A stretch of DNA of 47,137 nt from Brachyspira innocens ATCC 29796. GTDB taxonomy: Bacteria; Spirochaetota; Brachyspiria; Brachyspirales; Brachyspiraceae. The notes beneath the pieces are model-generated. The model did not search any database. It was given only the letters and a program-made list of their open reading frames with translations, and was not told the DNA's origin. The number at the start of each line of letters is the position of its first letter. Position 1 is the first letter of the stretch. This document shows positions 34,569 to 47,137 of the stretch, piece after piece. The stretch lies in the NCBI RefSeq assembly GCF_000384655.1, contig NZ_ARQI01000108.1, positions 1 to 47,137 of the forward strand, written 5' to 3'. A program made the translations under genes and the position numbers.

Positions 34569-35390
34569 TTAATATTTATTATACACTATAAAGCTAAATT
34601 CTTTTCTTATAGGAAGTATTAATTTGGAATGTGTTTTATTATTTTCATCGTATATTTGTAAATGATTATGCGGTTCTAAGTTTTGATTAAAAAGTCTTAA
34701 ATCGCATAAAGCAAGACCAAATCCTGCACTTTCGCTATTGTCTAACTGCTCAGTAAAAAATTTTTCTATTAGATTTTTATTGTAGTATTCTTTGAAAGTT
34801 AATCTTTTAGAGTCTATTCTTGTTCTGCTTATCATAGTAAGCGGTGCATCATTTACTATTTCAAAATATATATCATTTTTATTTATTCTTGAAAGCAGTT
34901 TAATAGTCAGTTTATTTTTTATATCCTGATTGCATAAAATTAATTTTGAGTATTTCACTTCATCTATTGGTATATTATTATCAATATCTTTTATAAGTTT
35001 ATTTTCTAATCTTATATATTCTTTAAATTCATTTTTAGTATCATCATCTTTTAATATATTAGAATATTCACTCATTATATCATAATCATCAAAATACTCT
35101 CTGCTTTCTATTTTTTTTGTAAATTGAGGAAATTTTTCTTCCAGTATCTTTATTGTTATGATATGGAGATATCTTGCTTTGATGGCATTAGATATAAGCT
35201 CCATTATAATATACACTGCATCATTAGCATATTTTTCTATTTTATATTTTCTTAATATTTCTTCTATTATAAATATTATTTTTTGTTTGGTGATATTATC
35301 AAGCCAAGTAATATAAAATTTAATAGGTTCTTTTTTATGATTTTTTATATATTCTTGTATTTCTTCTATACTAGTTGAAGCGTCTATCAT
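34569..35390 (-). CDS. Divergent GHKL-ATPase-like protein, unknown function
   Basis: A 273-residue protein with recognisable but degenerate histidine-kinase-type ATPase boxes: an N-box-like YIIMELISNAIKA with Asn68, a G1-like FEIVNDAPL (about 176-184) lacking the usual DxGxG, and a G2-like AGFGLALCDLRLF (222-234). A charged segment of about 85 residues is inserted between the first two boxes. ATP binding is plausible but uncertain. Its ATG overlaps the lpxB stop by four bases, so it is translationally coupled to lipid A genes. The role is not known. Confidence 0.65.
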   Translation of the reverse strand: MIDASTSIEEIQEYIKNHKKEPIKFYITWLDNITKQKIIFIIEEILRKYKIEKYANDAVYIIMELISNAIKARYLHIITIKILEEKFPQFTKKIESREYFDDYDIMSEYSNILKDDDTKNEFKEYIRLENKLIKDIDNNIPIDEVKYSKLILCNQDIKNKLTIKLLSRINKNDIYFEIVNDAPLTMISRTRIDSKRLTFKEYYNKNLIEKFFTEQLDNSESAGFGLALCDLRLFNQNLEPHNHLQIYDENNKTHSKLILPIRKEFSFIVYNKY

Positions 35391-36517
35391 GATTTTATAA
35401 TCTCTTTTGCTATGCGTTCTAGCACATTTTTTTCGCCTAAAGTTTCTCTAACTCTAAGCAGATTGCTGCTTACTTTTTTATAGTATTCTTTATCAGTTAG
35501 ATATTTTATAATATGACTTGTAATGGCATTAGGATTACAGTCGTTTTGAAGCAATTCTGGAGCAGCCTCTTCATTAAGCAGAACATTAGGCATTCCTACA
35601 TACTTTATATTTGTAAGTAATTTTCCGAGAAAGAAAGTAATATATGATATTTTATAGCATATTACCATAGGCTTACCATAACATGCAGCCAAAAGACTTG
35701 CAGTACCGCTTGACATTATTAATGCATCCGAATATGAATACACATAATCTTTATCTTCGCCTGATAATAGTGAGTAGCTTACACCTTTTAATAAATCTTT
35801 ATAATTATCAATAATCTTTTTTATAGGTTCTGTGTATTCTGGATATGCTATAGGTATTATAAATCTTATATTAGACGAAAGCATATCATTAAGCATTTTC
35901 ATAGATTTAATAAATACTGGAGCAAGCTGTTTTATTTCCTGATGTCTGCTTCCAAAAAGCACACCCACTGTATATTCTTTTTTAGGCATATTGAGTTCTG
36001 GTATTTTTTTATCATAATCCAAATCAGCAAACGGATGTCCGCTGTACATTACATTACAGCCGTATTTTTTATATACTTCATAATCAAATAAAAAAGGTGT
36101 TATTATTTTTTTAGCAGAAAGAAGTTTCTTTGCATTCCAAGCACCCCATATACCTACATGAGGCGGAAAATAATATATATAGTCTATATTATTTGCCTTG
36201 CAGTATTTAGCTAAAAGTAAATTAACTCCCTGATTATCAACTAAAAGCATAATATCTACTTTATTTTTTTTAAGATAGTCCTGAAGTATATTGAAAGCCC
36301 CAAGTTTTTTAAAAGCATATACTGGATTAGCACCCTCAAATATTCCCATAGTGGATAAAGTAGACATATCGGATAATATATTAACATTTGCTTTTTGCAT
36401 TTCAACACCGCCGAATCCGTCTAAAATTATACTAGGGTCTAATTCCTTTATCTTTTTTGCTAATAAAGCTCCCTGAATGTCGCCAGATACTTCTCCTGTA
36501 GCTATAAATATTCTCAT
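35387..36517 (-). CDS. lpxB: Lipid-A-disaccharide synthase
   Basis: A 376-residue GT-B glycosyltransferase of family GT19, which joins UDP-2,3-diacylglucosamine and lipid X. Typical LpxB segments are the N-terminal IFIATGEVSGDIQGA, the FPPHVGIWGAWNAKK stretch near 117-131, LFGSRHQEI near 189-197 and the donor-site SSGTASLLAACYGKPMV. It acts at the inner face of the cytoplasmic membrane. It is preceded by lpxA (27-base gap) and overlaps the following gene by four bases. Confidence 0.96.
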   Translation of the reverse strand: MRIFIATGEVSGDIQGALLAKKIKELDPSIILDGFGGVEMQKANVNILSDMSTLSTMGIFEGANPVYAFKKLGAFNILQDYLKKNKVDIMLLVDNQGVNLLLAKYCKANNIDYIYYFPPHVGIWGAWNAKKLLSAKKIITPFLFDYEVYKKYGCNVMYSGHPFADLDYDKKIPELNMPKKEYTVGVLFGSRHQEIKQLAPVFIKSMKMLNDMLSSNIRFIIPIAYPEYTEPIKKIIDNYKDLLKGVSYSLLSGEDKDYVYSYSDALIMSSGTASLLAACYGKPMVICYKISYITFFLGKLLTNIKYVGMPNVLLNEEAAPELLQNDCNPNAITSHIIKYLTDKEYYKKVSSNLLRVRETLGEKNVLERIAKEIIKS

Positions 36518-36544
36518 ATTGTTTGTAGTTTTATTTTGAACAAA

Positions 36545-37339
36545 TTATACAGTTTTTTTAGGAGTAATTCCTCTTCTTGCTTTAGAAATAAACTCTACAA
36601 TACTTCTAGCTATATCATTTAATGAATTGTCATTTAAATATGTATCTAAAAACTCTTGTTTTGTTTTATTCCAATTATACCACATATCATAAGCCGCTTC
36701 AGCCTGAGATATCTGCTCAGATGTAAAACCAGCTCTTCTCATACCAACCAAATTTAATTTATAAACAATAGCCTCTCCTGCATGAGCTGTCAAAGCAAAA
36801 GGAAGTATATCTCTTCCAACTGCAGACATACCGCTAATCATAGCATACTGACCTATAGCACAGAATTGATGTATTACACAGTTTCCAGATATGAAAGCAC
36901 CTTTCTCTACTCTTACATGTCCAGCCACTAATGCTCCATTACATATGATAACATTATCCTGTACTTCGCAGTCATGAGCAACATGACCTGTAGCCATTAT
37001 GTAACAGTTATTCCCTATTGTTGTTTTAGCATTTTCTTTAGAAGCTCTGTGTAAATTAGCAAACTCTCTAATTTCGTTTCCATCTCCTATTTCTAGGAAA
37101 GTTACTGTTTTTCTGTCGAAGTGTATATCCTGAGGTAAATTTCCTAAAACGGTATGATCATGAATTATATTATTTTTTCCTATAGTGGTGTATTCTTTTA
37201 TAACTGAATGAGCACCAATAACAGTATTTTCACCAATATTTACTTCGCCTTCTATAATAGCATAAGGACCAATTACGGCACTATCAGCTATTTTGGCAGA
37301 TTCTGATATAATTGCAGTTTTATGTATATTATTTGACAT
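36545..37339 (-). CDS. lpxA: Acyl-[ACP]-UDP-N-acetylglucosamine O-acyltransferase
   Basis: A 264-residue left-handed beta-helix acyltransferase, the first enzyme of lipid A synthesis. Hexapeptide repeats run to about residue 190, the catalytic His122 lies in TGHVAHDC, and the helical C-terminus (LVGMRRAGFTSEQISQ) is typical. The length equals that of well-studied LpxA proteins. It starts 13 bases after the fabZ stop. Confidence 0.97.
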   Translation of the reverse strand: MSNNIHKTAIISESAKIADSAVIGPYAIIEGEVNIGENTVIGAHSVIKEYTTIGKNNIIHDHTVLGNLPQDIHFDRKTVTFLEIGDGNEIREFANLHRASKENAKTTIGNNCYIMATGHVAHDCEVQDNVIICNGALVAGHVRVEKGAFISGNCVIHQFCAIGQYAMISGMSAVGRDILPFALTAHAGEAIVYKLNLVGMRRAGFTSEQISQAEAAYDMWYNWNKTKQEFLDTYLNDNSLNDIARSIVEFISKARRGITPKKTV

Positions 37340-37352
37340 TTTTAATTTCCTA

Positions 37353-37817
37353 TTATTTTTCTATTTTCATAGCCTCTTTATCTACTAAAAATAAGCCCAA
37401 ATCTCCAGAGCATGCAAGTTTATCATTTACTTTAACTTCGCCATGAGTTTTGAGCAGATTGTTGCTGAATGCTTCAACGGTAACAAACATGTCCATAACA
37501 TCGCCTGGTATTACAGGGTTTTTAAACTTTACATTATCTATTTTAGCAAAGAACATAAACTTTTTGCCGTATTCTTCAGGCTTTAAAATCTTTGTGTAGC
37601 AGTATATTCCAGAAGTCTGTGCCAATGCTTCGACCATTAAAACCCCCGGCATAATAGGGCTTTCAGGAAAATGTCCTGTGAACTGAGGTTCATTAAAAGT
37701 AACATTTTTTACTGCATGTATTTTTCCTTCTTCAATACTTTCTACTTTATCTACAAGCAGAAAAGGGTATCTATGAGGTAATAATTCCATTATTTTGTTT
37801 ATATTAATTTTTTCCAT
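37353..37817 (-). CDS. fabZ: 3-hydroxyacyl-[ACP] dehydratase
   Basis: A 154-residue hot-dog-fold dehydratase of fatty acid synthesis. His49 in TGHFPESPIMPGVLMVEALAQ and Glu63 in the same segment are the catalytic pair; LLPHRYPFLLVDKV near 12-25 is also a family hallmark. It supplies acyl chains used by LpxA and heads the fabZ-lpxA-lpxB operon. AAAGGA is upstream, behind a TTGTAA-17-TATAAT promoter. Confidence 0.97.
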   Translation of the reverse strand: MEKININKIMELLPHRYPFLLVDKVESIEEGKIHAVKNVTFNEPQFTGHFPESPIMPGVLMVEALAQTSGIYCYTKILKPEEYGKKFMFFAKIDNVKFKNPVIPGDVMDMFVTVEAFSNNLLKTHGEVKVNDKLACSGDLGLFLVDKEAMKIEK

Positions 37818-38105: not shown

Positions 38106-38133
38106 TTGACTTTTCAATTTTAGATTCTATACT
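38106..38133 (+). promoter_or_regulatory. Sigma-70-type promoter of the type III-A cas operon
   Basis: TTGACT (38106-38111), a 16-base spacer and TATACT (38128-38133). Only seven bases separate the -10 from the ATG at 38141, so a transcript from here would be leaderless for that ORF. Confidence 0.65.
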
Positions 38134-38140
38134 ATTTAGT

Positions 38141-38344
38141 ATGAATATTGATAAATTAGAATATAAAGAGTTTTTATTAAAGTCTATTTTTTATGATATA
38201 GACAGCATTATTTCATTTTTGAGTGAAAATAGTGAAATTTGTCAGAAGTTTTTTTGTCATTTAAAAAATAAATTTGATAAATTAAGTGTTGATTATGATG
38301 AAGTATTAAACACTGTTTCTAAAGAACTGGAATCTATTATTTAA
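38141..38344 (+). pseudogene. Degenerate N-terminal (HD-region) fragment of cas10
   Basis: A 67-codon ORF in exactly the same frame as the main cas10 ORF, ended by TAA at 38342-38344. The following 32 codons stay open and encode KALKSIFTVFKEINNKNLYY, which resembles the Csm1 segment directly after the HD domain, so this fragment is the remaining N-terminus of Cas10. The usual HD domain is about 100-150 residues with His-Asp and further His residues; here FYD may stand where LHD or LHN is expected, and no other HD motif residues are seen. There is no ribosome binding site before the ATG. It could be real and leaderless, or dead. Confidence 0.6.
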
Positions 38345-38440
38345 AAAAATGATAATATATCTGATAATAATAAAGCATTAAAATCTATATTTACTGTTTT
38401 TAAAGAAATTAACAATAAAAATTTATATTATCCGCTAAAT

Positions 38441-40423
38441 ATGATAGGAGATAATATAGTATATCCTGATGATTTTAATAAAATAAATAATTCCTATTTT
38501 TTAAATGATGAAAATAGAAAGTATATTGAAAGCTTAAATTTTGAAAAAATATTAAATGATGCTAATATTATATTAAATGTTCTTTCAAATATTCTTTCTT
38601 ATGTACCTTATTATAAAAGCGAAAAAGAATATGGCATAGGCGATATATCTTTTTATGATAAATTAAAAATTAACACGGCATTATCTTCTTGTTTATATCT
38701 ATTAAAAAATAATTCAGAAGAAAAAGAAAAACCTTTTGCTTTACTTGCAGCAGATATTTCAGGTATACAAAGCTTTATATATACTATTTCTTCTAAAGGG
38801 GCATTAAAATCATTAAGGGCAAGATCTTTTTATCTTGAAATAATGCTTGAGCATATCGCTGATGAAATATTGGAATATTTTAATCTAAAAAGATGCAATT
38901 TGCTTTACACAGGCGGCGGTCATTTTTATATTTTAATTCCTAATTTTAAAGATTTAAAAGAGAACATACTTTCTATTAAAAATAAAATAAATGATTGGTT
39001 TATAAAAGAGTTTTCTGTAGATTTGTATATAGCGATGGATTATGAAGAGTTTTCTTTTAATGACTTGAAAAATACAAAAAATATATTTAGAGGTCTTTCA
39101 AAAAAACTGTCTGTTAATAAGCAAAATAGATACAATAAAGAACAGTTAAATATCTTATTGTTTCCTAGAGAAAATGAAGCTGATTTTGAATGCAGTATAT
39201 GTAATACTTCTTCTAAAAGCACAAAAGAAAGAAATGAAAATTTAGGTTATGTATGTGATACCTGCTATAATCTATATAAAGCAGGCAAATATATAATAAA
39301 TGAAAATAATAGTATCACTATTACAAATACAAAAAATAATTTAGATAAAGAAAAAATTATTAATCTTCCTTCTATTTCTGAAAATAGATATTTATATTTT
39401 GGAAGTATAAATTCTGAAGATAGTTCTGTGATAAGAATATATTCTAAAAATAACAGTAATGATAAACATATTAATTTGTATTTAGGTGATTATAATTATA
39501 AAAAAGATGATAATGTAGATTTAAGCAGTTTTGAAGATCTTTTAGAAGGAACTTATGGTATAAGGAGAATAGGTGTATTAAGATGCGATGTAGATAATTT
39601 GGGTCAGGCTTTTATTAATGGATTTAAAGACCATTCTGATATTTTTAGAACTTCTGTTTTATCAAGACATTTAAGCTTATTTTTTAAGTATTATATCAAT
39701 TCAATATGTAAGGGTGATGTTCAGTTTCCTAATAATAAATTGTTTGGTGATAAATATTATCATAAAGAAAAACATGTTGTTATAGTTTATTCAGGCGGAG
39801 ATGATGTATTTTTGGTTGGGTATTGGCTTGATGTTATAGATTTTGCTTTTGATTTGAGAAAGGCTTTTAAAAGATATACTAATGATAAATTGACTTTCTC
39901 AGCAGGTATAGGCTTTTTTCATTCATCATATCCTATATCTAAAATGGCTTCTCAAACTGGAGAGCTTGAAGAGCTTGCTAAAAATCATATTTATAATAAC
40001 AAAGAAAAAGATTCTATAGCTTTATTTGGAATACCTTTTAATAAAAAAGAATCTAATTTTGAATATTGTTTTAATTGGCAGGAGTTTGATAAAGTTCGTG
40101 AAAAAATAAACATTATATTTTCTACTTGCTATCTTGATGAGAAATATTTTTGTGAAGATAAAGTATTTTTCTCTGCTTCATCTATTTATAGATTAAAGCA
40201 ATTAATAGAACTTGAAAGTTTGAAAGGGGATAAAATTAATATTGCAAGGCTTGCTTATTCTCTTGCAAGAATAAAATCTGCTGGAAGCGATGATTATATT
40301 AAGAATTATGAAAGTTTTAAAAATAATATTTATAATTGGTTTTTGGATAACGCAGATAGAAGATATTTAAATACTGCTTTAGATTTAATATTATATTTGA
40401 AAAGAGACGATTCTAATAAATAA
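38441..40423 (+). CDS. cas10: Type III-A CRISPR effector large subunit Cas10/Csm1, N-terminally reduced
   Basis: A 660-residue protein with two Palm/cyclase domains. The first contains ALLAADISGIQSFIY and ALKSLRARSFYLEIMLEHI; a zinc-ribbon has Cys251, 254, 272 and 275. The second Palm has RCDVDNLGQAF and the catalytic GGDD at 452-455, so cyclic oligoadenylate synthesis from ATP should be possible once target RNA is bound. The HD nuclease domain is missing from this ORF. Homology begins at about 38375, upstream of this ATG, which itself lacks a ribosome binding site; the true start is unclear because an in-frame TAA lies at 38342. Confidence 0.92.
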   Translation: MIGDNIVYPDDFNKINNSYFLNDENRKYIESLNFEKILNDANIILNVLSNILSYVPYYKSEKEYGIGDISFYDKLKINTALSSCLYLLKNNSEEKEKPFALLAADISGIQSFIYTISSKGALKSLRARSFYLEIMLEHIADEILEYFNLKRCNLLYTGGGHFYILIPNFKDLKENILSIKNKINDWFIKEFSVDLYIAMDYEEFSFNDLKNTKNIFRGLSKKLSVNKQNRYNKEQLNILLFPRENEADFECSICNTSSKSTKERNENLGYVCDTCYNLYKAGKYIINENNSITITNTKNNLDKEKIINLPSISENRYLYFGSINSEDSSVIRIYSKNNSNDKHINLYLGDYNYKKDDNVDLSSFEDLLEGTYGIRRIGVLRCDVDNLGQAFINGFKDHSDIFRTSVLSRHLSLFFKYYINSICKGDVQFPNNKLFGDKYYHKEKHVVIVYSGGDDVFLVGYWLDVIDFAFDLRKAFKRYTNDKLTFSAGIGFFHSSYPISKMASQTGELEELAKNHIYNNKEKDSIALFGIPFNKKESNFEYCFNWQEFDKVREKINIIFSTCYLDEKYFCEDKVFFSASSIYRLKQLIELESLKGDKINIARLAYSLARIKSAGSDDYIKNYESFKNNIYNWFLDNADRRYLNTALDLILYLKRDDSNK

Positions 40424-40448: not shown

Positions 40449-40814
40449 ATGCTTAATATCAGTGATGCAGAAAAATTTGTAAAAGATGAAAAGATTAATT
40501 ATATTACAACATCTCAAATAAGAAAATTTCTTGCTGCTGTAAATAAAATTTCAAATATGGTAAAGTTATCTGATATATCTGAAGATAAATTAGATAATAA
40601 TATTATTGAAGAAATAAAATATATGCAAATTCAGTTCGCTTATTTAGTTGGTAAAAGCAAAGGTACAAAAACAGAAAGGCAAATGAAAAGTTTATATGAT
40701 TTACTTAAAGATGAAATGTCTAATTTGCATACAAAAAAAGATTTTATTAATTTTGCTAGATATATAGAGGCTATAGTAGCTTACCATAAATTTCATGGAG
40801 GAAGAGAACAATGA
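40449..40814 (+). CDS. csm2: Type III-A effector small subunit Csm2
   Basis: A 121-residue all-helical protein. The ITTSQIRKFLAAVNKI segment near residues 19-34 and YLVGKSKG...LYDLLKDEM are characteristic of Csm2, which lines the groove of the Csm complex along the crRNA-target duplex. It has a perfect AGGAGG before the ATG, and its stop overlaps the csm3 start. Confidence 0.95.
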   Translation: MLNISDAEKFVKDEKINYITTSQIRKFLAAVNKISNMVKLSDISEDKLDNNIIEEIKYMQIQFAYLVGKSKGTKTERQMKSLYDLLKDEMSNLHTKKDFINFARYIEAIVAYHKFHGGREQ

Positions 40815-41542
40815 GCAGCAAAAATGTTTTTTATACAATTAAAGATAAATTAATAATAAGATCTAATATAAAACTATTAACTGGTATGCATATAGGAGCT
40901 TCTAATGACTTTTCTCCTATAGGTGCTGTTGATAGTATTGTCGTTAAAGATCCATTGACCAACAGACCTATTATACCTGGTTCTTCTATTAAAGGTAAAT
41001 TAAGAACTATGATGGCTAAACTTATGTCTGATAATATGTTTTTGCCTAGTCATGAAAATGATAAAGAAGAGGTAAAAAGATTATTCGGTTCTTCTGTGAA
41101 AGATAATATAGTAGAAGCAAGACTTCAGTTTTATGATTTGTTTTTAAAGAATGCTGAAGAATTAGAAAAAAAGAATTTAGATTTAGGATATACAGAAATA
41201 AAGTTTGAAAATAGAATAGATAGAATAATAGCAAAAGCTACACCTAGACAATTAGAAAGGGTACCTGCAGGAGCCATATTTGGATTCAAACTTATATATA
41301 ATGCTGATAATAGCGGAAATGAAAATATTATTAAAGATTTTAAGTTAATATCTAATGCAATAAAGGCTTTGCAGTTGGATTATATAGGAGGAAGCGGAAC
41401 TAGAGGTTATGGTAAAATTAGCTTTGAAAATTTTACTATAGAAAAGGCTAATCTTAAATCTAATGATATAGATTTAGCTTCTTTGTTAAAATATTTACAA
41501 GAAAGTGAAGATTTTGTTAATAAATTAATAAAAAATAAATAG
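40811..41542 (+). CDS. csm3: Type III-A backbone subunit and target-RNA nuclease Csm3
   Basis: A 243-residue RAMP protein (Cas7 group). The N-terminal strand ends LLTGMHIGAS, followed by SPIGAVDSIVVKDP with Asp41 in the position of the catalytic Asp (Asp33 of studied Csm3), and by the RPIIPGSSIKGKLR loop typical of the family. The C-terminal GGSGTRGYGKISF glycine-rich loop is also present. Csm3 subunits cut target RNA at six-base intervals. Its ATG overlaps the csm2 stop by four bases. Confidence 0.96.
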   Translation: MSSKNVFYTIKDKLIIRSNIKLLTGMHIGASNDFSPIGAVDSIVVKDPLTNRPIIPGSSIKGKLRTMMAKLMSDNMFLPSHENDKEEVKRLFGSSVKDNIVEARLQFYDLFLKNAEELEKKNLDLGYTEIKFENRIDRIIAKATPRQLERVPAGAIFGFKLIYNADNSGNENIIKDFKLISNAIKALQLDYIGGSGTRGYGKISFENFTIEKANLKSNDIDLASLLKYLQESEDFVNKLIKNK

Positions 41543-41550
41543 TTGTTATT

Positions 41551-42525
41551 ATGGAATATAAATTATATAAATTAAAGTTTGATACTCCTGTCCATTTTGG
41601 AAGTGATAAATTGGCTGTGAGTTTGGAAGAGTCAGATTTTATATGTCATAGTGATACATTATTTTCTGCTTTATGTTTGGAATATATTAAATTAAATAGT
41701 GCTGAAAACTTATCTAAATTTGTGGAGCTGTTTAATAATGGAGAACTTTTAATATCTTCTTTGCTTCCATATAAAGATGAAGATTTGTACATTCCAAAAC
41801 CTTCTATAGTAGTAGAAAGAGATAATAAAAAAGATGATAAAACAGATTCTTCTTCAGATAGAAAAAAAATGAAGAAACTTGGATTTATTAAAGTTTCAGA
41901 CTTGGATAATTATTTAAAAAGTATTAAAGGCGAGCATGACTTTAATTTTAACAGTATGGAATACAACAAATTTTCTAATGAATATTTATTTCAAAAAGTA
42001 TCTTTGTCAAGAACAGAAGAAAATAATTTGTATAGTATGGGTGTACATTATTTTTATGATAAATGCGGACTATATTTTATATTAGCTTATAATAATAAAA
42101 CCAATTTAGATATATTTGAACAAATTTTCAAAAGTTTGTCATACTCTGGAATAGGCGGCAAAAGAACTTTAGGTTACGGCAGTTTTACATTAATAAATGA
42201 TAGCAGCAGTATTTCTGATATTAATAAGTATTTATTTAAAGATTCTAAATATAAAATGATTTTATCTTTGTATTCTCCTTGTGAAAATGAGATTGAAAAT
42301 ATTGATTTTAACTCCTCATACTATTCTATTATAAAGAGAAACGGTTTTATATATTCTCAAACATACAGTAGTACTCTTTTAAAAAGAAAATCTTTGTGTA
42401 TGTTTAAAGAAGGTTCATGCTTTATTGGTGATATTAAGGGTGATATAAAAGATGTATCTCATGCTTCAGGAAGTCATGAAGTTTATAGATATGGCAAGGC
42501 TTTATATATTGGTATTAATATTTGA
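41551..42525 (+). CDS. csm4: Type III-A effector subunit Csm4
   Basis: A 324-residue RAMP protein (Cas5 group) that caps the crRNA 5' handle and contacts Cas10. The start LYKLKFDTPVHFG and SDTLFSALCLEYIKL are typical. The glycine-rich loop GIGGKRTLGYGSFTL lies near 203-217 and a C-terminal VYRYGKALYIGI follows. It starts eight bases after csm3 with only a weak ribosome binding site, suggesting coupling. Confidence 0.93.
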   Translation: MEYKLYKLKFDTPVHFGSDKLAVSLEESDFICHSDTLFSALCLEYIKLNSAENLSKFVELFNNGELLISSLLPYKDEDLYIPKPSIVVERDNKKDDKTDSSSDRKKMKKLGFIKVSDLDNYLKSIKGEHDFNFNSMEYNKFSNEYLFQKVSLSRTEENNLYSMGVHYFYDKCGLYFILAYNNKTNLDIFEQIFKSLSYSGIGGKRTLGYGSFTLINDSSSISDINKYLFKDSKYKMILSLYSPCENEIENIDFNSSYYSIIKRNGFIYSQTYSSTLLKRKSLCMFKEGSCFIGDIKGDIKDVSHASGSHEVYRYGKALYIGINI

Positions 42526-42535
42526 TGGTGATAAT

Positions 42536-43720
42536 ATGAATAATAATTTTAAAATAAATAATAGAAAAGTTTATAGAATGAGTCTCACTACATTATCTCC
42601 AATATTTATAAATAGCGGAGATATTTTTAGAAAAACGGATTATATATATAAAAATAGAATAGTTAGCGTTATAAATAAAAAAAAATTAATATCTGTTTTA
42701 GAAGAAAATAATAAATTAGATACATTTTTGGGAGAATGTGTTTCAGGAAATTTTAAACTTACTGCTTTTTTAGAAAAAAATATAAATAATTATTCATCTT
42801 TAGATATTTTTGACTATAGTATTAAAACATATAGTGATATGCAGGCAGAGAGTGCAGAAAATATAGAAATAGAATCTGATAACAAAGAATTAAATGATAT
42901 ACAGCCTTTTATAAAATCTTCAAATAGGTTGCCATATATTCCCGGTTCTAGTATTAAAGGAGCTATTAGAACAGCAATTATTTATGGTGAAGTAATGAAT
43001 AATAAAGAGAAATATGTTTATTTATTTAGAGATATTCTTAAAACTGAAAAAAAATATAATTTTAGAGATATAGAAAGTGATATATTAAAAAAGAAACTTA
43101 ACCTATTCAAGAATATGTCTATATCAGATACAAATGAGGCTGAACTTGATAATTTATATATTTCTCAAAGATATGATGTAGTAACATCTGAAAATACATA
43201 TCATCCCTTGCCAATATTTCTGGAAGTATTAAAGCCTGGTGTCAAATTATACTTTACCCTTAGTATAGATAAACCATATAGTATATATTCTTTATTAAAG
43301 TATTTTAGCGGTATTTATAATAATAAAGAAGATAATACATTTTATAGTGATTATTTAACTTTGTCTGCTCTTATTCAGGAAAATATTCTAGATAAATATC
43401 CTTTATTTGATGATTCATTAAATATGACTCCTAATATTTTTATAGGAGGAGTAAATGGGTTTTTAACTAAAAGTATAATATATTCTATTAGAAAAACATC
43501 AAATTATTCTTCTCCGATAAAAATTAAAGAATTAGTAAATTATATAAAGAAATACCTCGATTATCAATTTTATGATAAAGAAAATAAGATGCCTAAAGGC
43601 AGGCATGTAATATTAGATGATAAAATATCGCCTAGAAGTTTGAGACTTGTAAAAAAAGATGAAGATAATCTTATTGCACTTGGAATGTGCAATATTAAAG
43701 TTGAAGAGGAATTATGCTAG
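42536..43720 (+). CDS. csm5: Type III-A effector subunit Csm5
   Basis: The start at 42536 is preferred because the protein then begins with the RAMP strand YRMSLTTLSPIFINSG and GGTG lies just upstream; a longer frame would overlap csm4. The 394-residue product has the SNRLPYIPGSSIKGAIRTAI loop near 130-149 and a charged C-terminal half. Csm5 caps the 3' end of the crRNP and recruits crRNA-trimming nucleases. Its end overlaps the start of cas6 by seven bases. Confidence 0.93.
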   Translation: MNNNFKINNRKVYRMSLTTLSPIFINSGDIFRKTDYIYKNRIVSVINKKKLISVLEENNKLDTFLGECVSGNFKLTAFLEKNINNYSSLDIFDYSIKTYSDMQAESAENIEIESDNKELNDIQPFIKSSNRLPYIPGSSIKGAIRTAIIYGEVMNNKEKYVYLFRDILKTEKKYNFRDIESDILKKKLNLFKNMSISDTNEAELDNLYISQRYDVVTSENTYHPLPIFLEVLKPGVKLYFTLSIDKPYSIYSLLKYFSGIYNNKEDNTFYSDYLTLSALIQENILDKYPLFDDSLNMTPNIFIGGVNGFLTKSIIYSIRKTSNYSSPIKIKELVNYIKKYLDYQFYDKENKMPKGRHVILDDKISPRSLRLVKKDEDNLIALGMCNIKVEEELC

Positions 43721-44499
43721 CAACTTTAATCATTAAGATGAAACCTAGAGATAATTTGGTAATAAAAAAAGATTACGGCAGTTTGTTTCATGGTTATTTG
43801 ATGTCAAAATTAGATGCTGATTATGCTGAAACCCTTCATAATCTGTCACTTAATCCTTATAGTCAGTATTCTTATTTTGACAGTAAAAATAATATCTATA
43901 TATGGAAAATATCAACATTAAGTAAAGAAGCTAAAGAAAAAATAATAGATAAGTTATTTGATGAGAATATAAGTTCTTTTAGTTTAACATACAATGATTT
44001 GAAAGTTGATATTATCTCTAAAGAAATAGTTAATGTGCAAAGTTATAAAGATATTGCAGATAAATATTTTTTATCTAATGATATTATACGAAGTGTTAAT
44101 ATAAAGTTTTTAACTCCTACCACTTATAAAATACATAGACGTTATACTATATTTCCTTATTTGGATAATATGTTTATAAGTCTTTATGATAAATGGAATT
44201 ATTACAGTGAAAATATTTCTTTAGAAGATAGTAAATTGATTTCTGATATGGAAAAATATGTGAAAATAGTAAAATATAATTTGAGAAGCACAAAGTTTAG
44301 TATGGAAGGCGTTGGTATTGATTCTTTTATAGGAGAAATAAAACTTTACTGCCATGGTCCTAGTATGTTTGTAAATATTTATAATATGCTTTTGGATTTT
44401 GCATCTTATTCTGGTATAGGGGCAAAAACTTCTCTTTCTATGGGAGGAGTTTTGATATCAAGACCTTATATTGAAAAGATGAAAAACAATATTTATTAA
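43714..44499 (+). CDS. cas6: CRISPR repeat endoribonuclease Cas6
   Basis: A 261-residue double-ferredoxin-fold protein. SLFHGYLM near 23-30 supplies a candidate catalytic His26, and the C-terminal glycine-rich loop FASYSGIGAKTSLSMGG is the Cas6 hallmark. It processes the array transcript within repeats. Its ATG overlaps the csm5 stop, with GAGGA upstream. How it copes with the enlarged repeat loops in this array is an open question. Confidence 0.9.
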   Translation: MLATLIIKMKPRDNLVIKKDYGSLFHGYLMSKLDADYAETLHNLSLNPYSQYSYFDSKNNIYIWKISTLSKEAKEKIIDKLFDENISSFSLTYNDLKVDIISKEIVNVQSYKDIADKYFLSNDIIRSVNIKFLTPTTYKIHRRYTIFPYLDNMFISLYDKWNYYSENISLEDSKLISDMEKYVKIVKYNLRSTKFSMEGVGIDSFIGEIKLYCHGPSMFVNIYNMLLDFASYSGIGAKTSLSMGGVLISRPYIEKMKNNIY

Positions 44500-44523: not shown

Positions 44524-45855
44524 ATGAATGATAATCAGAAAAAAAAATATATATTATTTTCGCCAGTTGGTACTCATGACCCTATAGGTATTTCAAAAGA
44601 TAAAACAAAAGTATCAGAAGGTTCTATGCTTCATATAATTAGGCATTATAAACCTGAAATAGTTTATTTATATGTTACCAAAGAATTAAATAAAAATGAT
44701 AATAGATATAAAATAGCTATAGAAAAATTTCATCCTGAATGCAAAAAAGTAGAAGAGATATACGGTAAAGTTGATGATGTTAATAGCTATGATGCTTTTA
44801 TAGATGAGTTCAAAAATTGCATAAAAAATATTAATGATACTGATAATAAAAACGGAGAGTATGAGATTCTTTTAAATATATCTTCAGGAACTCCTCAGAT
44901 GAAATCAGATTTGGTTCTTGAGGTTATAACAAATAATATTTATTTAACTCCGATACAAGTATCCACTCCAGAAAAATCATCAAATTTTCCAGATAATTTT
45001 AGTTTTGATTTATTAGATAAAATAGATATAAATAAAGAGGAAAATGATATAAGATGTACTGTTCCAGAAGTTTTAAGTTTTAGAAGGGTGAAAATTCAAT
45101 CACAGATAGAATCTTTGGCAGAAAGGTATGAGTATTCATCAGCTTTAACTTTGATTAATAATGATGAAAGGTCAAAAAAATTATTTAGTGATGATTTAAT
45201 TAAATATTTAGAGCATGGGGCTTTAAGAATGAATTTGCAGTATGATAAGGCAAATGAAATAATAAAGCTGGATGAAAAAAATTATAATAATGAATGCATT
45301 GAGTTTATTGAATATTATTATGTTATGAAGATTAAACAAAGTAAATCAGAACTTTCGGATTTTATTTTGAGAATGAGTCCTTTCCTTACTTTTATATTAT
45401 TCTATTTTTTAAGAAAAAATGTAGCTGCTTTAAATAGAGTTTTGGAAAATATAAACGGAGATAAAAAAATTAGAGTAAATGCAAGTCCAGACCAGAACTT
45501 TATTGATTATATGAATAAAAGAGTTAAAAATCTTCAGGATGGGGATTTTATTACTTTTTATATTTTAATTTCTATGTATGATTTTTATGTTAAAAAGAAT
45601 CAGAAACTTAATACTATTATAGGTAAAAAATTACTTGATGAGCTTAGAGCTATAGAAAGAGAAATAAGAAATGATGTTGCTCATAAAATGATTAACATTG
45701 ATGAGGATTTTATTAAATATAAGGTAAAAATGTCTTCCAAAGATATATTATTAAAATGCGAAAAAATATTAAAATCAGTTTTTCCTGAATTTGATACTAA
45801 TTATTTCGTTTATGATGATATTAATAAGAGTATAAGAGAGGTATTACAGAAATAA
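44524..45855 (+). CDS. csm6: Cyclic-oligoadenylate-activated ribonuclease Csm6 (CARF-HEPN)
   Basis: A 443-residue protein. The N-terminal CARF domain starts ILFSPVGTHDPIG and contains SSGTPQM at 120-126, the usual cOA-pocket loop. The C-terminal HEPN domain carries the RxxxxH ribonuclease motif RNDVAH at 382-387. It is expected to degrade RNA non-specifically when cyclic oligoadenylate made by Cas10 binds. GGAG lies upstream of the ATG. The intact GGDD of Cas10 and the intact HEPN motif here indicate a working signalling branch. Confidence 0.93.
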   Translation: MNDNQKKKYILFSPVGTHDPIGISKDKTKVSEGSMLHIIRHYKPEIVYLYVTKELNKNDNRYKIAIEKFHPECKKVEEIYGKVDDVNSYDAFIDEFKNCIKNINDTDNKNGEYEILLNISSGTPQMKSDLVLEVITNNIYLTPIQVSTPEKSSNFPDNFSFDLLDKIDINKEENDIRCTVPEVLSFRRVKIQSQIESLAERYEYSSALTLINNDERSKKLFSDDLIKYLEHGALRMNLQYDKANEIIKLDEKNYNNECIEFIEYYYVMKIKQSKSELSDFILRMSPFLTFILFYFLRKNVAALNRVLENINGDKKIRVNASPDQNFIDYMNKRVKNLQDGDFITFYILISMYDFYVKKNQKLNTIIGKKLLDELRAIEREIRNDVAHKMINIDEDFIKYKVKMSSKDILLKCEKILKSVFPEFDTNYFVYDDINKSIREVLQK

Positions 45856-45860
45856 ATATT

Positions 45861-46337
45861 ATGAGAAGGAATTTATTAACTTTTATAGGTTTGACAGATA
45901 TAAAAACACATGAAAATAAAGAGTATAACGGAGCAGTAGAGCAGATACTGAGTAAATATGATTTTGAAAATGTTTATGTTTTTATAACATTAGGTTTGGA
46001 AAATAAAATTAATGAACTTAATATGATTGAAAGATATAAAGAAAGTTCTAAAAGTAATGTTATATCTGTTTATACAAAAATAGATGATCCTACTAATCCG
46101 AGATTAATTTATAATAAACTTAAAGAACATATTGAAGAGATTAATATTAGCACCAAAAATATAGAAGGCGAACTTTATGTAAATATGGTATCATCAACAC
46201 CGCAGATAATATCGATTTTGTCGCTTTTTGTAGGTGGTAAGGCATTGTATAATTCTATAGGTGTTTATCCAAGTAATCCTTTATATGGCGAGAGAATAAG
46301 ACTTGATGATTTGGATTTTTTTAGAGAGATAATTTAA
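45861..46337 (+). CDS. CARF-like protein without effector domain
   Basis: A 158-residue protein just six bases after csm6, in the same operon, with no separate ribosome binding site. It resembles a lone CARF domain: an initial hydrophobic strand LLTFIGLTD, a YVFITLGL strand, and VNMVSSTPQIISIL at about 107-120, which mirrors the NISSGTPQM loop of Csm6. There is no HEPN, nuclease or DNA-binding domain. It might bind or degrade cyclic oligoadenylate (ring-nuclease role), regulate Csm6, or be a truncated Csm6 duplicate. The assignment rests on pattern and position only. Confidence 0.65.
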   Translation: MRRNLLTFIGLTDIKTHENKEYNGAVEQILSKYDFENVYVFITLGLENKINELNMIERYKESSKSNVISVYTKIDDPTNPRLIYNKLKEHIEEINISTKNIEGELYVNMVSSTPQIISILSLFVGGKALYNSIGVYPSNPLYGERIRLDDLDFFREII

Positions 46338-46390: not shown

Positions 46391-46438
46391 TAAATAAAAT
46401 TTAATCAATGAAAACTCTTGATTATTAATCTGTCCCCC

Positions 46439-46463
46439 ACGTAGTGCCTATGGCACGAAGTGT
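46439..46463. repeat. GC-rich insertion in CRISPR repeat 1
   Basis: About 25 bases between CCCCC and GGGAATTG, containing the short palindrome GTGCCTATGGCAC and ending AGTGT. The 5' part of this repeat is also degenerate, as expected for a terminal repeat. Confidence 0.75.
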
Positions 46464-46530
46464 GGGAATTGATTTTAAAAACGGATTCAAACAATATTAA
46501 TAACACTACAGTAGAAAAGTTTTCGTCCCC

Positions 46531-46566
46531 CTACGAGCCGTTAGGCGAAGTGCCTACTTGGGGTGT
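46531..46566. repeat. GC-rich insertion in CRISPR repeat 2
   Basis: 36 bases replace the GGTG loop; the repeat is 67 instead of 36 bases. The insert starts CTACGAGCC, contains GCGAAGTGCCTACTTGG and ends GTGT. It shares order and wording with the insert at 46706-46752. Confidence 0.85.
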
Positions 46567-46705
46567 GGGAATTAATTTTAAAAACTAGGAAGTGCATGTT
46601 TTGATGTAGATTATCTAATAAGTTTTCGTCCCCGGTGGGGGAATTGATTTTAAAAACTGATATATTCAGTGGAAAAGAAAATAAAAAACTATTGTTTTCG
46701 TCCCC

Positions 46706-46752
46706 TACGAGCGTAGCGAAGTACCTACTTGGTTACGAGCGTAGCGCAGTGT
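46706..46752. repeat. GC-rich double insertion in CRISPR repeat 4
   Basis: 47 bases replace the GGTG loop; the repeat is 79 bases. Two tandem units, TACGAGCGTAGCGAAGT (46706-46722) and TACGAGCGTAGCGCAGT (46734-46750), lie 28 bases apart. The flanking CCCC and GGGG arms remain intact. Confidence 0.85.
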
Positions 46753-47137
46753 GGGGAATTGATTTTAAAAACTCGCTTATATCGTCTAACTAAATTTTCA
46801 TTAAAAATGTTTTCGTCCCCGGTGGGGGAATTGATTTTAAAAACTTGTTCTATTCGCTTGTATGGGCTTACAGTTTTAGCGTTTTCGTCCCCGGTGGGGG
46901 AATTGATTTTAAAAACAAGGGGGTAGTCCATGAAAAACAACAACACTATAGAGTTTTCGTCCCCGGTGGGGGAATTGATTTTAAAAACTTATATCACTCG
47001 CTTTAGTTTTTCTAAAGTAAGATGTTTTCGTCCCCGGTGGGGGAATTGATTTTAAAAACTTTGATGGCACAGATAAAGAATCGGTTTTATTTAAGTTTTC
47101 GTCCCCGGTGGGGGAATTGATTTTAAAAACCTTATGG

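Follow-up and report, generated by a model that had tools for sequence, protein, structure and literature searches.

A premature stop codon in a Brachyspira type III-A cas10 gene that had probably lost its HD nuclease region earlier

The window, meaning the whole stretch of 47,137 nucleotides that was analysed, is contig C108 of a 3.28-Mb Brachyspira draft genome in 130 contigs. It carries cas10, csm2, csm3, csm4, csm5, cas6, csm6, a gene for a stand-alone CARF protein and a CRISPR array, all in one direction and reaching up to the contig end. With csm2-csm5, cas6, csm6 and an array adjoining cas10, the locus is a type III-A CRISPR-Cas system. The main cas10 (csm1) ORF (38441..40423, on the + strand like every window feature given below) encodes 660 aa with Palm1, zinc-finger, Palm2/GGDD and C-terminal helical domains. 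It matched the Pfam families Csm1_B and Cas10-Cmr2_palm2 and alone scored 547 bits against TIGR02578 (cut-off 170). Its GGDD cyclase motif (39794..39805) is invariant in an alignment of 26 Cas10 sequences, as are Cys351, 354, 372 and 375 of the zinc-binding region between the palms. The following genes are csm2 (40449..40814; PF03750, TIGR01870), csm3 (40811..41542; TIGR02582), csm4 (41551..42525; TIGR01903, PF17953), csm5 (42536..43720, with an alternative start at 42452; TIGR01899), cas6 (43714..44499; PF10040, PADLOC Cas6_IIIa) and csm6 (44524..45855; CARF and HEPN domains, TIGR02672 with 315 bits at a cut-off of 150). The catalytic Asp41 of Csm3, read from the translation, and the RNDVAH motif of the Csm6 HEPN domain are present together with GGDD, in agreement with the original prediction that all three sites are intact.

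The stand-alone CARF protein (45861..46337, 158 aa, PADLOC model CARF1--CARF) has no HEPN domain. Few proteins of the locus are more conserved: three relatives have homologues of the same length that are 77-80% identical to it (L038 866-1342, L040 18399-18875 and L106 3286-3762), and its dN/dS is 0.17. A sequence search of its alignment against the PDB gave no match. The protein is a candidate cyclic oligoadenylate (cOA)-binding regulator or ring nuclease. No cas1 or cas2 was found in the III-A locus up to the contig end, and the sole cas1 found in this genome lies on another contig, C122 (L108). There, a second cas operon, type I-B-like by gene order, ends in cas1 at the end of the contig. 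In the relative G022, a III-A-type cas1 adjoins the cas10 locus.

The array (46430..47137) has a 36-bp repeat, GTTTTCGTCCCCGGTGGGGGAATTGATTTTAAAAAC, and is cut off by the contig end. In some repeats between 46430 and 46777 the loop is enlarged: the GGT of GTTTTCGTCCCC-GGT-GGGGGAATTGATTTTAAAAAC gives way to approx. 20-45 nt of sequence resembling small hairpins (CTACGAGCGTAGCGAAGTGCCTACTTGG...). Such repeats also occur at L139 1-330 (C86), L140 1-100 (C41) and L178 (C54); those on C86 adjoin a flank common to G025, possibly the leader. The 21-mer CGTAGCGAAGTGCCTACTTGG, searched with up to three mismatches, gave eight matches in four of 26 Brachyspira genomes, and all seven that were read in context lay inside CRISPR repeats, so that the 21-mer does not look like a dispersed element. 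Self-targeting was considered as a reason to lose Cas10 and rejected, as no self-targeting spacer was found: outside the arrays the spacers gave only weak partial matches in their own genome, and they had no match in phage records.

The cas10 reading frame begins upstream of the main ORF. One and the same frame holds an ORF of 67 aa (38141..38344) and the 660-aa ORF, and the sole stop within 38141-40421 is the TAA at 38342..38344, after which 692 codons are open. This reading of the ORFs confirmed the arrangement that had been described from the sequence, with a single TAA between two parts of one gene. In base-shuffled copies, the 32 codons after the stop (38345..38440) were open by chance in 2.2% and the 67 codons before it in 0.025% of cases. 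Since shuffled copies are rarely open, the frame on either side of the stop is not a chance frame. When the TAA was read as a residue, the TIGR02578 score rose by 15 bits to 562 and the match reached residue 48, which bears out the claim that the 32 codons are already Csm1-like. They comprise a disordered linker (residues 71-77) and a conserved ALKSIFTxFK...YYPL stretch. Both sides of the stop align to uninterrupted Cas10s in four other Brachyspira genomes, where the same column holds a sense codon for Ser or Leu. The gene thus carries a disabling mutation in a frame that its relatives keep intact, which is one criterion of a pseudogene. In the Cas10 body, no further disabling change and no relaxed constraint were found; a weak hint of the latter is confined to the 67-codon piece. 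Another spirochaete cas10 (L025, G057, C44, 66496-68939) has three in-frame stops over its length and is a more advanced pseudogene.

Among the 26 Brachyspira genomes compared, one per species, this cas10 is present in five, each time beside fabZ. The four relatives with a syntenic gene are B. alvinipulli ATCC 51933 (G002, NZ_KI912407.1), G020, G022 and G023, and they include uncultured Brachyspira MAGs. The cas10 of G023 lies in two parts: contig C124 holds the N-terminus and C128 the body, and the two overlap with minor differences. The window protein was aligned with these copies and with 21 Cas10s from outside the genus, mostly from Firmicutes and 27-40% identical to it. At the position of the His-Asp pair of active HD domains it has Tyr18-Asp19 (38192..38197), meaning that of the pair only the Asp is retained, and the other HD ligands are absent. 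All five Brachyspira copies share a shortened N-terminus that reads FLLxSxFYD where active Cas10s read LLHDIGK, and in all five the HS, HH and AD..R ligand positions are missing. The HD motif is kept in 20 of the 21 outside Cas10s, the exception being Desulfonema magnum (L069), and among the closest outside relatives nearly all have LLHDIGK plus the remaining ligands.

Judged from these alignments, the Cas10 HD nuclease is reduced and almost certainly inactive. The short N-terminus with Tyr-Asp in all five copies and the LLHDIGK of the outside relatives place the loss before the stop and independent of it, and its simplest history would be a single loss on the Brachyspira branch. The original prediction had tied the stop to the HD loss, a link that is not supported, given the four other copies with a reduced domain and no stop. 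It had also described the 67 codons before the stop as lacking HD residues; while the His and other ligands are indeed absent, Asp19 is kept and the shortness is common to all five copies, so the stop did not shorten the remnant. Sister genomes had been proposed as a check, and they showed an intact frame in all four relatives but a full HD domain in none. The suggestion of RNA cutting and signalling without Cas10 DNase agrees with the missing ligands and the otherwise intact motifs, and would describe the ancestral state of the Brachyspira lineage. HD loss in this III-A lineage is thereby dated to a time before at least five Brachyspira genomes diverged. A signalling-type Cas10 would be the lineage's normal state and the stop a strain-level event, which changes how the locus is read. 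HD-less, cyclase-positive Cas10 as such is already well known. As a side observation, csm6 is multiplied in relatives: G023 has two tandem full-length copies (L038 1356-4063), and G022 has several csm6-like ORFs (L040 12600-18380), the first of which looks broken into pieces of 116, 114 and 310 aa. This multiplication fits a lineage relying on cOA signalling.

The predicted cas10 promoter, TTGACT - 16 nt - TATACT (38106..38133), agrees with the consensus at ten of twelve positions and lies 7 nt before the ATG at 38141. The arrangement TTGAC[A/T] - 16 nt - TATA[C/A]T, 7-8 nt before the ATG, is common to all five Brachyspira copies, and its conservation in five species supports the start at 38141. 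No Shine-Dalgarno sequence was found at this native start in any of the five. The cas10 mRNA would start at or beside the ATG and thus be leaderless. After the stop, the first in-frame ATG, GTG or TTG is the ATG at 38441 (codon 101), which is Met in the window genome only within the Brachyspira alignments; the next start codon, at 235, falls inside the catalytic core. No Shine-Dalgarno sequence was detected at 38441 (+1.9 kcal/mol compared to -11.1 for csm2 and -9.3 for csm3), which is weaker evidence than usual because the native start is also without one. No internal sigma-70-like promoter of at least 9/12 with suitable spacing was found at leaderless distance from 38441. The ATA at 38456 was rejected as a start: it has a good AGGAG upstream, but translation starts very weakly at ATA, and this AGGAG is itself coding sequence. 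Since neither restart nor readthrough has positive support, the gene most likely yields a short peptide and no Cas10.

Selection on the locus was examined against G023, the closest relative. The dN/dS was 0.17-0.48 for csm2-csm6, cas6 and the CARF gene; with these genes constrained, there is no general decay of the locus. Within cas10, the body had 0.20, compared to 0.31 for the part preceding the stop and 0.32 for the 32 codons that follow it. Amino-acid changes were also counted per branch with the other Brachyspira as outgroup, and the ratios of this branch to the sister branch were 6:1 for the 67-codon piece, 1:3 for the 32 codons that follow the stop and 30:40 for the body. The difference between the 67-codon piece and the body (Fisher p = 0.046, one of several comparisons and with fewer than ten resolved changes in the piece) is a hint that the remnant is changing faster on this branch. 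With no acceleration in the Cas10 body, the stop should be recent, false or tolerated.

The first of these readings, to which we give about an even chance, is a recent real nonsense mutation that disables Cas10; it takes the base as real and infers the loss of Cas10 and the inactivity of the system. In this account, the Cas10 HD nuclease disappeared early in the Brachyspira lineage, when the His-Asp pair lost its His and the segment that carried the remaining ligands was deleted. In the original functional state, still found in the four relatives, Csm3 would cut target RNA while Cas10 lacks DNase activity, and the GGDD site would make cyclic oligoadenylate that switches on Csm6. Recently, and in the window genome alone, a nonsense codon would then have arisen where the HD remnant ends. 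The mRNA is probably leaderless, and its translation would stop after 67 residues with no efficient restart visible, so that little or no Cas10 would be made and the system would most likely be off in this strain. This would be ordinary CRISPR loss, which is plausible as type III-A activity can cost its host (PMC5754349).

The surroundings of the locus were compared in the fabZ-side stretches L103, L104, L107 and L105. The stretch is empty in G009 and G015, and in the two genomes with the most similar flank (93% identity) fabZ directly adjoins an alcohol dehydrogenase gene. G022 carries III-A and cas1 between fabZ and an alcohol dehydrogenase gene, and near fabZ G004 has cas1/cas2-like genes and two large ORFs of 1004 and 889 aa. 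This site is thus a hotspot at which CRISPR loci come and go, as would suit a dispensable system.

Against a loss of Cas10, it is noteworthy that the stop falls where damage would matter least. An AlphaFold2 model of the read-through Cas10 was built from a 26-sequence alignment (mean pLDDT 83, pTM 0.88) and aligned to solved Csm1 chains over nearly its full length with Z 28-43. In the model, the HD-domain remnant forms four helices (residues 5-16, 20-28, 32-46 and 53-68), the last of which ends at residue 68, the position of the stop, and residues 71-77 are the sole internal stretch with a pLDDT below 50. The stop is therefore predicted to sit at the end of the helical HD remnant, just before a disordered stretch. 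Of the single changes in cas10 that can produce a nonsense codon, 13% lie within codons 1-100. This placement favours a tolerated change, although the argument is made after the fact. The faster change of the remnant beside an unaccelerated body is also as expected if the remnant alone is dispensable, at very small numbers.

Cas10 without the HD remnant might accordingly be made from the ATG at 38441 or by a restart after the 67-codon ORF, in which case RNA cutting and cOA signalling would persist and the stop would complete an old HD loss. Such a tolerated truncation is rather unlikely, but several findings are in its favour: the predicted domain boundary at the stop, a remnant already without ligands and perhaps relaxed, a constrained body, the Met at codon 101 that is private to this genome, and the III-A immunity of M. 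tuberculosis via cA6 and Csm6 without HD activity (PMC6755085). It is opposed by the lack of a Shine-Dalgarno sequence or an internal promoter at 38441. A start there would also drop the genus-conserved ALKSIFTxFK...YYPL stretch, which is not relaxed here (one change versus three). Translational restart 97 nt downstream is, moreover, normally inefficient. More specifically, a stepwise removal of the HD domain, in which a nonsense codon at the boundary followed the loss of the ligands and left a working HD-free Cas10 from codon 101, possibly with a free 67-residue peptide, is regarded as doubtful. If a product is still made after the stop, the strain would be a natural test of whether cOA synthesis needs the N-terminal domain of Cas10.

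A sequencing or assembly artefact, in which the codon is in truth a sense codon and Cas10 runs through as it does in the relatives, is unlikely as well. The genome is a draft in 130 contigs, the four relatives are intact and the remainder of the locus is open and constrained, all of which would suit an error. The commonest errors in draft genomes are homopolymer indels, while substitution errors in a consensus are rare. The TAA results from a substitution and leaves both flanking parts in one frame; a homopolymer indel would shift the frame, though an A7 run touches the site. In an error check of the whole window against G009, ORFs were collinear only in 34569-37817, and there all were intact and of equal length.

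Readthrough or recoding, with enough ribosomes continuing past the TAA to yield full-length Cas10, is very improbable: the Csm1-like frame does resume directly after the stop without relaxed change, but TAA followed by A is an efficient bacterial stop, 29 of the 35 longer ORFs in the window end in TAA, which makes it the most frequent stop there, and the relatives have no stop in that column to recode. Codon reassignment and a suppressor tRNA were rejected since none of the 34 tRNA genes found has an anticodon that reads UAA. The same applies to programmed frameshifting or slippage on the A7 run, because the stop is read in frame first and both sides share one frame; as the run follows the T of the TAA, slippage in it leaves the stop in place. 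Among the options listed initially, readthrough is thus unlikely and an internal start is possible, albeit without a ribosome site or promoter, and the recent nonsense mutation and a sequencing or assembly error are the main ones that remain.

The closest counterparts are the Cas10s of B. alvinipulli ATCC 51933 and the Brachyspira MAGs, which share the fabZ-side locus, the reduced N-terminus and the promoter. They differ from the window protein in having no stop, and their body is 60-79% identical to it. The model aligns from residue 6 with the Csm1 proteins of Lactococcus lactis and Enterococcus italicus (9ash, 9g9k) to residue 756/758, with Z 42-43 and 34% identity; unlike in these, the HD ligand His residues are absent from the Brachyspira sequence. 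In staphylococci with prophages, the fitness cost of III-A vanishes with a cas10 Palm mutation (PMC5754349). The reconstituted III-A system of M. tuberculosis (Csm1-6) confers immunity via the cyclase (cA6) and Csm6, and mutation of its HD site had no effect (PMC6755085). However, M. tuberculosis Cas10 keeps its HD domain, whereas the Brachyspira copies have lost its ligands. A recognisable HD domain is present in 65% of surveyed III-A loci and about a third are without one (PMC11229360). Such HD-less Csm systems have the same III-A gene set with intact GGDD, Csm3 and Csm6 as found here, but all Brachyspira copies keep a degenerate Tyr-Asp remnant, which the stop cuts off in one genome.
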